Source of the DNA: a virus
Length of the DNA: 40,646 bases
Virus record (IMG/VR): IMGVR_UViG_3300046028_006522
Location: 1 to 40,646 of that record
Strand: one strand, 5' to 3'
The first letter of the stretch is position 1, and each line of letters opens with the position of its first letter. Both the position numbers and the translations under genes were made by a program. The notes beneath the pieces were generated by a model that saw only the letters and a list, made by a program, of their open reading frames with translations, did not search any database and was not told the DNA's origin. Below are positions 982 through 39,052 of this stretch, piece by piece.

Positions 982-1696
982 TATTAAAGTTTTTGTGGGT
1001 GTTTTCAATATCTTGTAAAAATTCTCTTGCTTTTTCTACTTTTTGCTCAATGCGTAAAATATCATCTTCGTTTCTATTAACTTCAAACATAAGTATTCTT
1101 TCTTCCATAGCTATATCATCAAACTTCATGTTTAATTCTAACTTCATAGCTTCTCTTACAAACTCTGGGCTTTCTTCTGAAATTACATCTAGCTTTTTAA
1201 GTAAGTAATACTTCTCTTGTTGGATAATATTATCTGGTGTATTTACAAGGCAATAAGCAATGGTAGCTTTGGTTTTACCCGTAAGCCACATATATGACAT
1301 CATTTGCCAATAGTATAAATTATCAAGTTTATCTGGGATATTACCTAAGAATGTCCATAGGTCATAGCTAGATTTAATATCAATAATTCCATCATCAATA
1401 ATATCTGGTAGCCCTGTTATGTATTTATTTGAAAATCTTTCCGTATTTTTAGCAAAAGGTTTTTTTAAGAACATAGACAATAAATCAATCGATTCTTGCT
1501 CTACTTCAATACCTTTTTTCATTTGCTTTGTTTGAATATCTTTACTCCTATTATACTTATTAGAAATATAAACATCAAGCAAATGTCTTTGTGCGGTCTT
1601 AGAAAGTAACCCAGCTTCTTTGTCCGCTTTGGTTACTGGTTCGGTCATTATATACCCTACAGAGCTTGCTCTGATTAGTGTTTCATTCCAATTCAT
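968..1696 (-). CDS. PD-(D/E)XK (YqaJ/RecB-like) exonuclease
   Basis: The 242-aa protein has the nuclease core of the YqaJ/Cas4/RecB-type PD-(D/E)XK fold: a helix with KGIEVEQESIDLL (residues 61-73, likely E64 or E66), GLPDIIDDGIIDIKSS with D98 and the D106-x-K108 pair, then YYWQMMSYMWLTG (129-140), the QxxxY-type motif IV. These residues coordinate magnesium for DNA hydrolysis. In phages such enzymes resect double-stranded ends for single-strand annealing or recombination-dependent replication; SSB and NinG in this window fit that. No annealing protein (Erf, RecT, Red-beta) is recognisable nearby. The gene follows the gene ending at 1699 after 2 nt and overlaps the next by 14 nt. Confidence 0.85.
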   Translation of the reverse strand: MNWNETLIRASSVGYIMTEPVTKADKEAGLLSKTAQRHLLDVYISNKYNRSKDIQTKQMKKGIEVEQESIDLLSMFLKKPFAKNTERFSNKYITGLPDIIDDGIIDIKSSYDLWTFLGNIPDKLDNLYYWQMMSYMWLTGKTKATIAYCLVNTPDNIIQQEKYYLLKKLDVISEESPEFVREAMKLELNMKFDDIAMEERILMFEVNRNEDDILRIEQKVEKAREFLQDIENTHKNFNNGKI

Positions 1697-1698
1697 AG

Positions 1699-2061
1699 TT
1701 ATAAAGATTTATGTTTAGCGTTATAAGATTCTAATACCTCTGGATTATTTTTAGCCATTAATTCCCAAGCTCTTAACTCCTCTTTAGTCTTGCAAGCATT
1801 TATAAACTCTATTGTTTTTTCAGCTAAAGATTTTTTAGATTGGGTAGGAATAATTTCATCTGGGACTTCTTGGTAAAATTCGTTTAAATCTTTTAATTTA
1901 ATTACATTTTGCTTGTGATACTCTTCCACAAGTTCTCTTGCGTAATCAAGAGCCTTTGTAGCAGATTCGCCCTCATTAAGAGCAAATTCAACGCCAATTT
2001 TTTCAGAAGAATAGTTTCCTAAGTTAAATGTTCTAGTGTAGTTAATCGTTTGTATATGCAT
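1699..2061 (-). CDS. Exonuclease-linked hypothetical protein, 120 aa
   Basis: The protein begins MHIQTINYTRTFNLGNYSSE, followed by a short beta-rich domain ending GVEFALNEGESATKALDYARELVEEYH, then a linker and a helical C-terminal part. The start pattern (YxRTFNLGNY.SEKIG) is one I recognise from small proteins encoded next to exonucleases in many Bacteroidota phages. Its molecular role is not known to me. It lies 2 nt upstream of the exonuclease gene, so a partner or regulator role is plausible but inferred. No catalytic motif, signal peptide or membrane segment is visible. Confidence 0.75.
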   Translation of the reverse strand: MHIQTINYTRTFNLGNYSSEKIGVEFALNEGESATKALDYARELVEEYHKQNVIKLKDLNEFYQEVPDEIIPTQSKKSLAEKTIEFINACKTKEELRAWELMAKNNPEVLESYNAKHKSL

Positions 2062-2070
2062 AATATTGGT

Positions 2071-2268
2071 TTATTTTATTCTGGTTACAGTAGTAGTGTT
2101 GTCAGTAGCTTTAATCTTAAATAATTTATCTTTGTGGGCGTCTTTTTTCTTTAAATTGGATACCATAACCATTACGGAAGTATATGGATTATCTAACCTA
2201 AGATGTTCGCCTAATGTTAAGTCAGCAACCTTACTGGAAACTGAATCGGGGGAAATGCTTCTTGCCAT
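2071..2268 (-). CDS. Hypothetical protein, 65 aa, first gene of leftward operon
   Basis: A short basic protein (MARSISPDSVSSKVADLTLG...) that fits the operon spacing: 9 nt before the 120-aa gene, and its ATG lies 17 nt downstream of a TAATTTTG promoter box at 2285-2292. I prefer it over the overlapping rightward frame at 2066-2293, because the rightward frame has no partner genes and would run through the leftward promoter. The segment TSVMVMVSNLKKKDAHKDKLFKI looks like beta strands. Function unknown; as first gene of an early operon it may be an early host-interaction protein, which is speculation. Confidence 0.6.
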   Translation of the reverse strand: MARSISPDSVSSKVADLTLGEHLRLDNPYTSVMVMVSNLKKKDAHKDKLFKIKATDNTTTVTRIK

Positions 2269-2338: not shown

Positions 2339-2346
2339 TATATTTG
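2339..2346 (+). promoter_or_regulatory. Rightward promoter, -7 box TATATTTG
   Basis: TATATTTG matches TAnnTTTG. Transcription would start near 2352. No plus-strand protein gene follows before 3720, and a strong terminator ends at 2417, so the box would drive only a short RNA. No TTG -33 box lies at the usual distance. Confidence 0.5.
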
Positions 2347-2351
2347 TATCC

Positions 2352-2417
2352 GCATAAGACATAGTTAAAGGTTTAACTGGTATCGCTCCTAAGTTTCTAC
2401 TTGGGAGCCTTTTTTTT
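2352..2417 (+). ncRNA. Candidate orphan small RNA, about 65 nt
   Basis: Bounds are inferred from the promoter box at 2339-2346 and the terminator U-run ending at 2417. The transcript would hold a first inverted repeat (AGTTAAA at 2363-2369 with TTTAACT at 2372-2378; some inner pairs must open to form a loop) and then the terminator hairpin. The stretch is too short for a meaningful ORF and leads to no gene, so it is not an mRNA leader. I recognise no RNA family. Regulatory antisense RNA or RNA decoy are possible roles; all are inference. Confidence 0.4.
2385..2417 (+). terminator. Intrinsic terminator of the small-RNA unit
   Basis: GCTCCTAAG (2385-2393) pairs with CTTGGGAGC (2400-2408) over 9 bp with one G-T pair and a 6-nt loop, followed by eight T at 2410-2417. 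It works only rightward, since the left flank has no A-run. Confidence 0.8.
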
Positions 2418-3608: not shown

Positions 3609-3638
3609 CAAATTTAATTAAATTAATTGAACTACAAA
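3609..3638 (-). promoter_or_regulatory. Leftward early promoter TTTG-N18-TAAATTTG
   Basis: On the minus strand the -7 box TAAATTTG (3616 to 3609) is preceded 18 nt upstream by TTTG (3638 to 3635). Both boxes and the spacing match the Bacteroidota sigma consensus. It drives the NinG operon. It lies back to back with the rightward early promoter at 3665-3695. Confidence 0.65.
3614..3630. repeat. TTAATTAA pair in the divergent early region
   Basis: TTAATTAA (3614-3621) is followed 9 nt later by TTAATTGA (3623-3630), the same 9-nt step as in the cluster at 2295-2329. The pair overlaps the leftward -7 box, a position where a bound protein would block that promoter. Confidence 0.45.
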
Positions 3639-3664
3639 ATAATTTTAAAAAAAAGTTAAAAATA

Positions 3665-3927: not shown

Positions 3928-4677
3928 ATGGCTCGCCCAATAAAGAATTACTGTGATTATTTCCCTCACGATAGAGATATGCGAAACCATAGAAAGGTTA
4001 AAGCTATCCGTACAAAGTTTGGAGTTACTGGCTATGCTATATGGTCTATGACTTTAGAGTATTTAACAGGCATAGATGGTAATGTTTTAGAATATTCAGA
4101 TGTAGAATTTGAATTAATGGCTGGTGATTTCGGAGTTTCTGCCACAGAAATACGGGACGTACTGGATTACTGCATTAAGTTGGAGATGTTATTCCTAAAT
4201 AATGGCTTTATTAACTCAGAATCGCTTGATGAAAGACTAGTACCTGTTTACGAAAAAAGAGGTCGCAGTAAGGATAATAGTAAGAAACAACAGCGTGTGA
4301 ACGGTAAATTTGTTAGCTGTAATACCGTTAGTAACGGAGTTTCTGTGGCAGAAAAACCGCAAAGTAAAGTAAATAAAAGTAAAGTAAAAGAAACTATACC
4401 AAGTATAGATGAGTTTTTGTCCTTTTGCAAGGAGGATATGGTAAAGAACAATATGAATTTTAATTTGTACGAATACTCGTTAAAATCAAAATACGAGTCT
4501 TGGGTCGAAAATGGGTGGAAAGATGGCCATAATAACATAATAAAGCTATGGAAGTCTAAAATTCGCAACACTATACCACATTTAAGACCTATGCAGACAC
4601 TTTCTAATAAAAGTGGAGGGAAGTATCAAAATGAATTAGAAACTGCTAGAAACGCCTTTAAACCAATTTCTGAATAA
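3928..4677 (+). CDS. DUF4373-like (Lin1244-type) replication protein, 249 aa
   Basis: The start ARPIKNYCDYFPHDRDMRNH followed by RKVKAIRTKFGVTGYAIWSM matches the N-terminal DUF4373 (Lin1244/Lin1753) domain, a winged-helix-like domain seen at the start of phage DnaD-like replication proteins. A lysine-rich linker (SKVNKSKVKE) is typical of these proteins. The C-terminal part (about 150-230) is helical with a W-rich stretch ending in WKSKIRNTIP. Its stop overlaps the ATG of the primase-helicase (TAATG at 4675-4679), so the two are translationally coupled. A role in origin recognition or helicase loading is inferred from family and position. Confidence 0.75.
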   Translation: MARPIKNYCDYFPHDRDMRNHRKVKAIRTKFGVTGYAIWSMTLEYLTGIDGNVLEYSDVEFELMAGDFGVSATEIRDVLDYCIKLEMLFLNNGFINSESLDERLVPVYEKRGRSKDNSKKQQRVNGKFVSCNTVSNGVSVAEKPQSKVNKSKVKETIPSIDEFLSFCKEDMVKNNMNFNLYEYSLKSKYESWVENGWKDGHNNIIKLWKSKIRNTIPHLRPMQTLSNKSGGKYQNELETARNAFKPISE

Positions 4678-6536
4678 TGATAACAATTTTTAAAAACATC
4701 TTTTCTAAGGAACCAAATTACATTTCTGTTGAAGCTGCGTTAAAAAGAATACAAGAAGGTAAAAGCAAATCAACCGTATCTGAAATTAGAGGAACAATTG
4801 ATAAAGAAAAAGCAAATAAGATAAAACTAAACCTTCCTTCGGTGTGTTTTAGTGGTAAATTTGGTCCCGATAGAACTGATGCCCAGTTAATTACGCATAG
4901 TGGGTACATAGTTTTAGATTTTGACAACGTATTTGAGCTTAGAGATAAGCAAAATGAAATTATTTCACATCCATTTGTTTACGCTTGTTGGATTAGCCCA
5001 TCTGGTAATGGATTAAAAGCTTTGGTAAAAGTAGCAAATGGTGAAAAACATAGAGAACATTTCCAAGCATTACAAGAAGTGTTTCCAGAAATTGACCGAA
5101 GCGGAATTAACCAAAGCAGAGTATGTTATGAGAGTTACGACCCCGAAATTTACATAAACGACAAGGCTGAAGTTTTTAAGAAGATTAAAAAAACCGAAAA
5201 GGTTGTTGTTTACGAGAAAAACGATGATGACCAAAAAATATTTAAGAATGTTTTAACTTGGTTATCTAATAAAAACGAGGCTTTTGTTACGGGGGAAAGA
5301 AATAATTTTATCTTTAAGTTAGCATCAGCTTGTTGTCGTTTTGGTATTAATGAAACTGCAGCAAATTCTATGATTCATACAGAGTTTATTACGAATTCTG
5401 AGTTTACAAAGAGTGAGGCAGATAGGGCAATACGTTCTGCATACAAGGCAAATTCAAAAAACTTTGGAAGTGCATCATTTGATAAAGAAATATTAGTTGA
5501 TAAGGTTTCTAGAAAGGAAATAGAAGTTGAGAAAGCTGTATTTGATGAAGGATTAAAACTTAAAGATGTTATTTACGGAATTGATGTAAAAGAACAAGCT
5601 TTAAGAATTTATGACGAAGGATATGCTAAAGTAGATGGTATTGGCGTACCCGATTTGGATGATAAGTTTAAACCAAAGAGAGGAGAGATTACAGTTCTTA
5701 CTGGTATTGGTAACTATGGTAAATCTTCGTTTAAAAAATGGTACCAAGCTATGCGTATAATGTTATACGGAGAAAAGTTTGCTACATTTTCACCAGAAGA
5801 TAACCCACCAGAAGAATACTACCATGATTTTGTAGAGATTATTTTAGGATGTGATTGTAGTCCTGCAAATCCACATAGACCATCTAAACAAGTTTATGAA
5901 TATGTTTACGATTTAGTATGCAAGCATATATTTTATGTTTATCCTAAAGATGTTTCGCCTACTCCACAATATGTGATGGAAGTATTTTTAGAGTTAATTG
6001 TGAAAGAGAATGTTGATGGCGTAGATATTGATCCTTTCAACCAATTGACAAACGAATATCAAAAGTTTTCAAGAAGTGATAAATATCTTGAATGGGTATT
6101 GTCTGTGTTCTCAAGATTTGCGCAGATAAACAATATTTTCTTTTGGATAATTGCTCACCCTGTTAAAATGGTAAAAGCATCTGATGGTAACTATCCTTGC
6201 CCAGATGTGTTTGATTTAACTGATGGTGCAATGTGGAATAATAAACTAGACAATATCCTTGTATATCATAGACCCTTTGCTCAAACAGACCCTAGTAATC
6301 CATCTTGTGAATTTCATAGCAAAAAGATTAGAAGACAAAAGATTGTTGGTAAGAAAGGGTTTATTTTATTTCAAATGTATTTTCAAACTAGAAGATTTTT
6401 ATTCAATGGATTGGATTCATTACAAAAAATTATAAATGATAAAAATATAATTTTAAGACCCGATGCATCAGTACAAAAAACATTTGATAATTGGACACCT
6501 TACAAAGATGATAATGGAACAGAAATTAATTTTTAA
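4677..6536 (+). CDS. Fused VirE-N (BT4734-like) primase and DnaB/RepA-like helicase
   Basis: The 619-aa protein has an N-terminal BT4734/VirE-N-type domain (about 15-170) with the acidic signature YIVLDFDNV (D81, D83) and WISPSGNGLKALVKV, as in archaeo-eukaryotic-type primases of Bacteroidota elements. A helical PriCT-like segment follows (about 190-260). The C-terminal RecA-type domain carries Walker A TGIGNYGKSS (K349, S350), a Walker B strand GVDIDPFNQL (D452) and IIAHPVKM (H494), as in hexameric replicative helicases. It should both prime and unwind DNA at the fork, like T7 gp4 but with a different primase fold. Coupled to the gene before (TAATG); SSB follows after 17 nt. Confidence 0.85.
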   Translation: MITIFKNIFSKEPNYISVEAALKRIQEGKSKSTVSEIRGTIDKEKANKIKLNLPSVCFSGKFGPDRTDAQLITHSGYIVLDFDNVFELRDKQNEIISHPFVYACWISPSGNGLKALVKVANGEKHREHFQALQEVFPEIDRSGINQSRVCYESYDPEIYINDKAEVFKKIKKTEKVVVYEKNDDDQKIFKNVLTWLSNKNEAFVTGERNNFIFKLASACCRFGINETAANSMIHTEFITNSEFTKSEADRAIRSAYKANSKNFGSASFDKEILVDKVSRKEIEVEKAVFDEGLKLKDVIYGIDVKEQALRIYDEGYAKVDGIGVPDLDDKFKPKRGEITVLTGIGNYGKSSFKKWYQAMRIMLYGEKFATFSPEDNPPEEYYHDFVEIILGCDCSPANPHRPSKQVYEYVYDLVCKHIFYVYPKDVSPTPQYVMEVFLELIVKENVDGVDIDPFNQLTNEYQKFSRSDKYLEWVLSVFSRFAQINNIFFWIIAHPVKMVKASDGNYPCPDVFDLTDGAMWNNKLDNILVYHRPFAQTDPSNPSCEFHSKKIRRQKIVGKKGFILFQMYFQTRRFLFNGLDSLQKIINDKNIILRPDASVQKTFDNWTPYKDDNGTEINF

Positions 6537-38539: not shown

Positions 38540-39052
38540 ATGCGCCAATTAAAAGATAACCCAAATTACTTAGTAACTGTAGACGGAAGAGTATTCAGTC
38601 TACATACTATGAGATATTTGAAAAATTTTCCAAAAGCTGGCGATTATGTGTATGTGAAAATTGGAAGCAAATCACATAGAGTGCATAGACTAGTAGCTCA
38701 AACTTATATACCAAATCCAGAAAACAAACCACAGGTTAATCATATGGATGGCAATAAAGAGAATAATATGCTATGCAATCTAGAGTGGATGACTCATTCT
38801 GAGAATGTGCAGCATGCATGCGATACAGGGTTAAGACCAATTAGTGAATTAATGAGAGAAAATGGAAGAAGAAGCACTAATTTACTTTCTGGGAGAAATA
38901 AATATACTATTAAATTAGTTTTGGATGAAGAAACAGGTATATTTTATGAAAGTGCAAGAGATGCAGCAGAATCAGTAGGTGTGAAACCAAAATATTTGCG
39001 AAGAAGATTGAGTGGAGAAGTAAAAAATAATACAAAATTTAAATACGTATAG
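38540..39052 (+). CDS. NUMOD4-HNH homing-type endonuclease, 170 aa
   Basis: Residues 8-30 match a NUMOD4-like start (PNYLVTVDGRVFSLHTMRYL). The HNH core is RVHRLVAQTYIPNPENKPQV followed by NHMDGNKENN (H68, N76 area), N80-LEW and SENVQHA (N89, H92). The C-terminus (IFYESARDAAESVGVKPKYL) is a NUMOD1-type DNA-binding helix set. Such free-standing enzymes cut related phage genomes lacking the gene and spread by repair. It is packed between two appendage genes (4 nt and 1 nt) and ends with TAG. No intron is evident, so the insertion site is intergenic. Confidence 0.88.
   Translation: MRQLKDNPNYLVTVDGRVFSLHTMRYLKNFPKAGDYVYVKIGSKSHRVHRLVAQTYIPNPENKPQVNHMDGNKENNMLCNLEWMTHSENVQHACDTGLRPISELMRENGRRSTNLLSGRNKYTIKLVLDEETGIFYESARDAAESVGVKPKYLRRRLSGEVKNNTKFKYV

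Follow-up and report, generated by a model that had tools for sequence, protein, structure and literature searches.

A conserved promoter-terminator unit of phages with Flavobacterium-type promoters, probably encoding an antisense small RNA against recombination genes

The window, by which we mean the whole 40.6-kb IMG/VR phage contig analysed here, comes from a virus of Flavobacterium-like bacteria and carries promoters of the Flavobacterium type. Its non-coding region at 2269-2762 separates two leftward operons, one consisting of g5, g4, the exonuclease gene (exo) and further genes (ending at 451) and the other starting with ninG (from 3621). A short rightward unit lies in this region, and its features and predicted targets are as follows.

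2339-2346, plus strand: -7 box TATATTTG of the small RNA promoter, from the sequence and the Flavobacterium consensus TANNTTTG (PMC6847099)
2351-2417, plus strand: predicted small RNA of about 65-67 nt, with the start taken from the -7 box rule and the end from the T-run
2353-2384, plus strand: putative 5′ antisense segment, from predicted duplexes with the exo and g4 starts and co-variation with the targets across lineages
2360-2367 and 2370-2375, plus strand: main pairing blocks of the 5′ segment, CAUAGUUA and GGUUUA, from predicted duplexes
2385-2408, plus strand: intrinsic terminator hairpin with the hexaloop UUUCUA (loop 2394-2399), from folding and covariation in 21 relatives
2410-2417, plus strand: T8 run of the terminator, from the sequence
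1694-1717, minus strand: predicted target, start region of the exonuclease gene (968-1696), ...AAATCTTTATAACTATG, duplex -14.5 kcal/mol, kept in relatives
2059-2090, minus strand: predicted target, start region of g4 (1699-2061), AACCAG...TAAACCAATATTATG, duplex -13.5 kcal/mol
4657-4679, plus strand: possible third target, start of the primase/helicase gene (4677-6536), CCTTTAAACC, duplex -13.3 kcal/mol, weak

The promoter box reported in the initial annotation is confirmed at 2339-2346. In F. johnsoniae the -7 box has its G at position -5 (PMC6847099), and by this rule the RNA would start near 2351 and be about 67 nt long. The hairpin and the eight T residues described there are both present, 2385-2408 reading GCTCCTAAG-TTTCTA-CTTGGGAGC and being followed by C and then T8, but the stem has 9-10 bp with one G.U pair rather than a plain 9 bp. 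The segment 2352-2417 (66 nt) folds at -20.3 kcal/mol (z = -3.87), and none of 200 shuffled sequences folds as well. The unit has the hallmarks of a small RNA gene, namely its own promoter, an intrinsic terminator and no open reading frame, since no frame of note starts from ATG, GTG or TTG within 2351-2417. As had been stated, no plus-strand gene starts before 3720. Taken singly, neither the box nor the hairpin is remarkable in this AT-rich window, where TATATTTG occurs at chance level (7 observed versus 5.8 expected) and terminator-like sites are mildly enriched (10 versus 5.6 expected), and therefore conservation has to decide.

The same non-coding region contains a block with many short palindromes at 2456-2696 (AACATTGTACAATGTT, GAGCCG..CGGCTC and others), which keeps 85-95% identity between phages whose flanking genes differ (L089, L109, L112, where L numbers denote individual loci); its pieces look shuffled between phages, and it is possibly an origin or an operator array. 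An AT-rich element, TTAATTTAATTAATTTAATTAA with TAATTTTG / TAAATTTG boxes, is common to 2285-2332 and about 3609-3650 on the minus strand, and these elements, located ahead of both leftward operons, are probably leftward early promoters.

The promoter-RNA-terminator unit is common to well over a hundred related viral sequences, and among IMG/VR phage contigs the main unit takes 81 distinct forms, which are spread over three or more genomic contexts. Relatives were fetched by the exonuclease gene (80 loci) and by g5 (2071-2268; 80 more, overlapping), and in most of these loci the unit is located upstream of g5, as in the window (context A). By pattern scan, the unit was found between late genes, the last of which is SprT-like, and rightward early genes (context B), and it was seen again in loci fetched via the SprT-like gene, for which the hairpin was not used. 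A third location is found in L211. With three or more gene contexts, it does not serve one particular neighbour. The initial annotation had named homologous phages as the place to look for the box and the hairpin, and relatives fetched through neighbouring genes indeed carry box, RNA and hairpin. The box is exactly TATATTTG in 64 of the 81 distinct units and CATA lies 5 nt after TTTG in 56 of them, counts that are partly built in because extraction of the units demanded TANNTTTG, CATA and a GGTT-like motif; unselected raw sequences, obtained via neighbouring genes, plainly show TANNTTTG, CATA and GGTT-like motifs. The unit is absent from the L069-L081 lineage and was lost recently from L056 and L058.

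An Rfam scan of the window gave nothing at gathering score and only chance matches up to E 10, and DNA searches of known phages likewise returned chance matches only. The annotated phages tant8-1 (L306) and ctnlZ23 (L307) contain no covariance-model match, and 395 Bacteroidia genomes gave no match under strict filters and with no positive control, which is a weak negative. A search with a SprT-like protein, an approximate sequence whose last residues were filled in from a pattern, was empty, again a weak negative. A pattern scan of genome contigs returned only L156, a phage contig, and L157, a chance coding match. L156 (CAIMDI010000007.1), filed under a Candidatus Taylorbacteria bin, belongs to this phage group, and its binning is probably wrong.

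The terminator stem differs among relatives (GCTCCTAAG/CTTGGGAGC; GCCCTTACG/CGTTGAGGGC; CCCCTTCCG/CGGTGAGGGG; others), whereas the loop remains TTTCTA or TTTTTA, with UUUCUA near-constant in the main unit types. In an alignment of 21 diverse units, some taken from a pattern scan that fixed the loop and others anchored on genes and free of this constraint, all 189 pair cells are standard (100% paired) and 8 of the 9 pairs are altered on both sides. Double changes occupy 47 cells, compared with 14.2 (sd 2.7) in shuffles and at most 19 in slid structures, and the covariation measure is 0.711 versus 0.147; a single U.G pair, accompanied by a bulged U, does not vary. The covariance search proposed in the initial annotation is successful, because model R1, built with the window sequence left out, recovers 2355-2414 at 47 bits (E = 2.6e-8), and the rest of the window contains nothing else credible, so that the unit is a single copy. 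Compensatory changes had been predicted in both stems of the transcript; they are abundant in the terminator stem, which is conserved as RNA, but most relatives have lost or rearranged the second stem. Joint conservation of box, hairpin and T-run, the compensatory stem changes and the occurrence in at least three gene contexts support the original reading of the locus as a phage small RNA gene.

Minus-strand terminators behind ninG (L069-L081, L083, L110, L115, L215-L225) share the UUUCUA hexaloop and match model R1 at 32-41 bits, including in phages devoid of the small RNA. The idea that the hairpin in the ninG 3′-UTR takes the place of the RNA in the L069 lineage was rejected, because this hairpin, despite its 32-bit match, does not pair with exo or g4.

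The invariance of the loop and of the U.G pair with its bulge, within a stem that covaries, would also suit a structural or protein-binding decoy, in which the hairpin with its constant UUUCUA loop is the active part and binds, for example, a host RNA-binding protein; most other terminators in these loci have different loops. A variant in which the hairpin mimics the 16S tail (held by bS21, bS18 and bS6) is conceivable, as UUUCUA follows the anti-Shine-Dalgarno CCTCC in flavobacterial 16S genes, CCTCCTTTCTA tails occur in Bacteroidia genomes and bS21 binds the 16S tail in F. johnsoniae (PMC9976891), although this six-letter match was chosen after the fact and may be a coincidence. Some context-B members have other loops (TTTAGTCTTA, ATTTCCAT), and a decoy leaves the co-varying complementarity to start codons, described below, unexplained. 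We regard the decoy explanation as unlikely.

The placement of the unit bears on the possibility that it is only an insulator, in which the promoter-terminator pair sets local supercoiling or stops late rightward read-through into the leftward operon, the RNA itself being functionless. The terminator is unidirectional and rightward, and in contexts A and C the unit is located where gene orientation switches. A plain terminator, however, requires neither a promoter, nor a conserved loop, nor a conserved 5′ segment, and co-variation of this segment with distant mRNAs would have no explanation, which makes a pure insulator quite improbable. The orphan status given to the unit holds in the window but not throughout the family: L156 and L100 have a small plus-strand gene (..EVEITRLEVINHAKNDHPIGRILTLYKELGDF..) 65-110 nt downstream, and in L061 that gene lies directly behind the same promoter, replacing the RNA. 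These loci, together with the early operon downstream of the unit in context B, are what an attenuator or leader of a plus-strand gene, since lost in the window, would predict. No same-strand gene lies directly downstream in the window (none until 3720), and in nearly all context-A phages the downstream genes or inserts are oppositely oriented, so that the exclusion of an attenuated leader by the initial annotation stands apart from the three loci named. As the L247-type early operon has its own TATCTTTG promoter beyond the terminator and the unit is found in several unrelated contexts, a leader is very hard to credit. In L036, L050, L051 and L061, leftward homing-endonuclease genes of GIY-YIG or HNH type are inserted right after the small RNA terminator.

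The reading as a trans-acting antisense RNA rests on the 5′ part of the transcript. The inverted repeat AGTTAAA/TTTAACT noticed there is present in the window but is not conserved, a perfect repeat of at least 6 bp occurring in only 13 of 81 units; because it is lost or broken in most relatives, this stem was rejected as a conserved RNA element. What recurs in the segment is CATA near the start and GGTTTA right before the hairpin, and the 5′ segment is better explained as a putative antisense part pairing with mRNA start regions than as a stem. In the window, duplexes with the starts of exo (p 0.003), g4 (p 0.017) and primase (p 0.033) are stronger than those of shuffled RNA segments; judged on the window by itself, none of them stays significant once 41 genes are corrected for, and a late gene at 38540 (p 0.007) scores by z better than exo. 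Support for the window targets comes from the relatives, through matching site changes and permutation. The primase was rejected as a conserved target, because its site is not kept in A3-type relatives.

The pairing genes of context A are g4 and exo, which come second and third in the leftward operon, and their predicted sites lie about 0.3-0.7 kb from the RNA gene on the opposite strand. Because g5, ninG, g64, g39 and init of the early region of the window show no pairing, the RNA is not a general early-gene switch in this context. The g4 gene (1699-2061, minus strand) encodes a conserved 120-aa protein with a predicted β-hairpin, a long helix and a helical C-terminal part; it has no Pfam match, and its predicted structure (mean pLDDT 76) has no PDB match. 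A C-terminal tail common to g4 and recombinases, an impression gained by eye, found no support in profile comparison (E 0.039, probability <1%) and was dropped.

Complementarity to the start regions changes together with these regions, more weakly so in the lineage of the window itself. In L028, the RNA sequence GCATAG-AA-GGTTTA stands opposite TAAACC-A-CTATGC of g4, and at exo AAGTGTT stands opposite AACACTT in L219 and CAGTGTT opposite AACACTG in L090. In the sister lineage L069-L081, which has no unit, g4 reads AAAATAAGTATTATG, with TAAACC lost, and exo reads CTTTAATG, with CTATG lost; the window RNA pairs with these g4 and exo starts at only -6.4 and -6.6 kcal/mol, compared with -13.5 and -14.5 kcal/mol for its own. 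L056 and L058 retain the g4 site, as expected if the unit was lost only recently there. The units of L083 and L115, which have T4-like segments, pair poorly with g4.

For nine representative RNA types, duplexes of each RNA with its own recombinase start sum to -139.2 kcal/mol, whereas permuted RNA-recombinase pairs have a mean of -92.2 (sd 9.9) and none of 200,000 permutations reaches the observed sum. Permutation of own pairs gave p 0.0024 for g4 (7 lineages) and p 0.014 for exo (6 lineages). Because the representatives were hand-picked, one per RNA/target type, and come from mutually related phages that are not independent samples, the permutation result for the recombinases is to be taken as strong support and not as an exact probability.

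For 255 early-gene starts of context B, duplexes with the RNA segment of the same phage have a mean of -9.83 kcal/mol, which is stronger than for internal ATGs of these genes (-8.07 kcal/mol, p 2.9e-10) and for late-gene starts (-7.22 kcal/mol, p 1.3e-15); late genes show no pairing excess, the mean z of all late families lying between -0.7 and +0.7. Early starts also pair better with real than with shuffled segments (-8.99 versus -6.01, sd 0.29; -11.50 versus -7.71, sd 0.40). The best-paired family tested, with a mean z of -3.89 (15 genes, 11 different segments), is a 240-aa protein identified as the single-strand-annealing recombinase RecT (Pfam PF03837, E 2.3e-24), followed by a 208-aa family (z -3.68; 14 genes, 13 segments) that includes ERF proteins (PF04404, E 1.5e-25) plus one relative without family assignment. 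In many loci, the recombinase start ranks at or near the top of all sites in the locus. The predicted duplexes cover the AUG (CATATTGG/CCAATATG, ACTAATGGT/ACCATTAGT, TTGCATAGTAAA/TTTACTATGCAA), and most are AU-rich and interrupted by internal loops. Inverted copies of a DNA-binding site (an operator) at the RNA gene and its target genes, with no RNA-RNA pairing, would give an identical sequence picture, but this is highly improbable, because the matches are located at start codons, those of the recombinases about 1.7 kb inside the early operon and not at promoters, and because the pairing takes in the AUG in blocks that are split and shifted like RNA duplexes.

In L275, L284, L287 and L094, another promoter-RNA-terminator unit (TATCTTTG ... 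TTCATAGTTCAGGTTTCTCCCAGTGTAAAAAGCTGGGAGTTTTT) stands in tandem ahead of the main one, immediately after the SprT-like gene. Pairing with the starts of early genes (75-aa and 99-aa genes) is a tendency of its 5′ end as well, and it may specify a second RNA of context-B phages that covers further early genes.

Judged from the sequence comparisons, 2339-2417 is most probably a phage gene that stands on its own and encodes an antisense small RNA, which acts in trans to repress the translation of recombination genes. Transcription by the main RNA polymerase of the host would be driven by TATATTTG, begin near 2351 and end at the hairpin and T8, and the stable 3′ hairpin would both terminate and protect the RNA. 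The weakly structured 5′ part (CAUA...GGUUUA) would then pair with early phage mRNAs at their start codons and at UAAACC-type sequences upstream of these. The mRNAs concerned would chiefly be those for DNA recombination, predicted to be the exonuclease and g4 mRNAs here and those of RecT-like and ERF-type annealing proteins in relatives. Pairing over the start codon would block translation initiation. Ribosomes of Bacteroidota initiate without Shine-Dalgarno pairing, and they do so less well when the start region is structured (PMC6847099, PMC9976891); therefore, covering the AUG should repress. The computational analysis establishes a conserved unit, a covarying terminator hairpin and a complementarity that changes with the target between lineages. 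Production of the RNA, repression rather than activation, its timing in infection and the part of any helper protein are what we infer beyond this.

The predicted mode of action resembles that of c4 of P1/P7 and sar of P22, short phage RNAs that block translation of the ant mRNA by pairing near its ribosome-binding site (PMC12197685). Here, too, a small phage RNA is predicted to block translation of phage mRNA by pairing in the start region. However, c4 and sar target an antirepressor in immunity control, whereas the RNA described here is predicted to pair with several genes, those of recombination, and the host group of the window phage makes no use of Shine-Dalgarno pairing. The RNA is not assigned to c4, because no Rfam family reaches threshold (the c4 model gives no match up to E 10 against 2280-2780) and the predicted targets are recombination genes and not ant. 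The OOP RNA of lambda, of about 77 nt, has its own promoter and terminator near early and replication genes (reviewed in PMC12197685). In this respect the two are alike, as both are short phage RNAs with their own promoter and terminator near early genes, but OOP is a cis-antisense RNA transcribed opposite cII; no gene overlaps 2339-2417 on either strand, which is not the OOP arrangement, and the predicted targets are about 0.3-0.7 kb away on the other strand or, in context B, about 1.7 kb downstream. PreS of lambda and VpdS of VP882 are trans-acting, Hfq-dependent phage small RNAs, of which PreS targets host dnaN (PMC12197685); the RNA here would share with them its phage origin and action in trans, but its predicted targets are phage genes. 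Another kind of phage RNA, the RNA anti-CRISPR (Racr), mimics a CRISPR repeat of the host system (PMC10651486). The RNA of the window would work like the antisense RNAs c4, sar and OOP, yet by the tests made it belongs to none of them. A 2025 review (PMC12197685) names no small RNA of a Bacteroidota phage and none directed against recombination genes, within a literature scope of open-access publications, so that an earlier description is possible.

It seems fairly likely that the unit represents a widespread mobile RNA family that is a dedicated brake on phage recombination, its 5′ ends evolving freely with their targets and converging in several independent lineages on whichever annealing or exonuclease gene the phage carries. 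Here a phage small RNA family is defined by its structure and its targets are predicted from coevolution, which is rarely feasible for such RNAs. Because the ribosomes of these hosts do without Shine-Dalgarno pairing, such an RNA would have to cover the start codon itself. The finding points to post-transcriptional control of phage recombination, the process that drives phage mosaicism.
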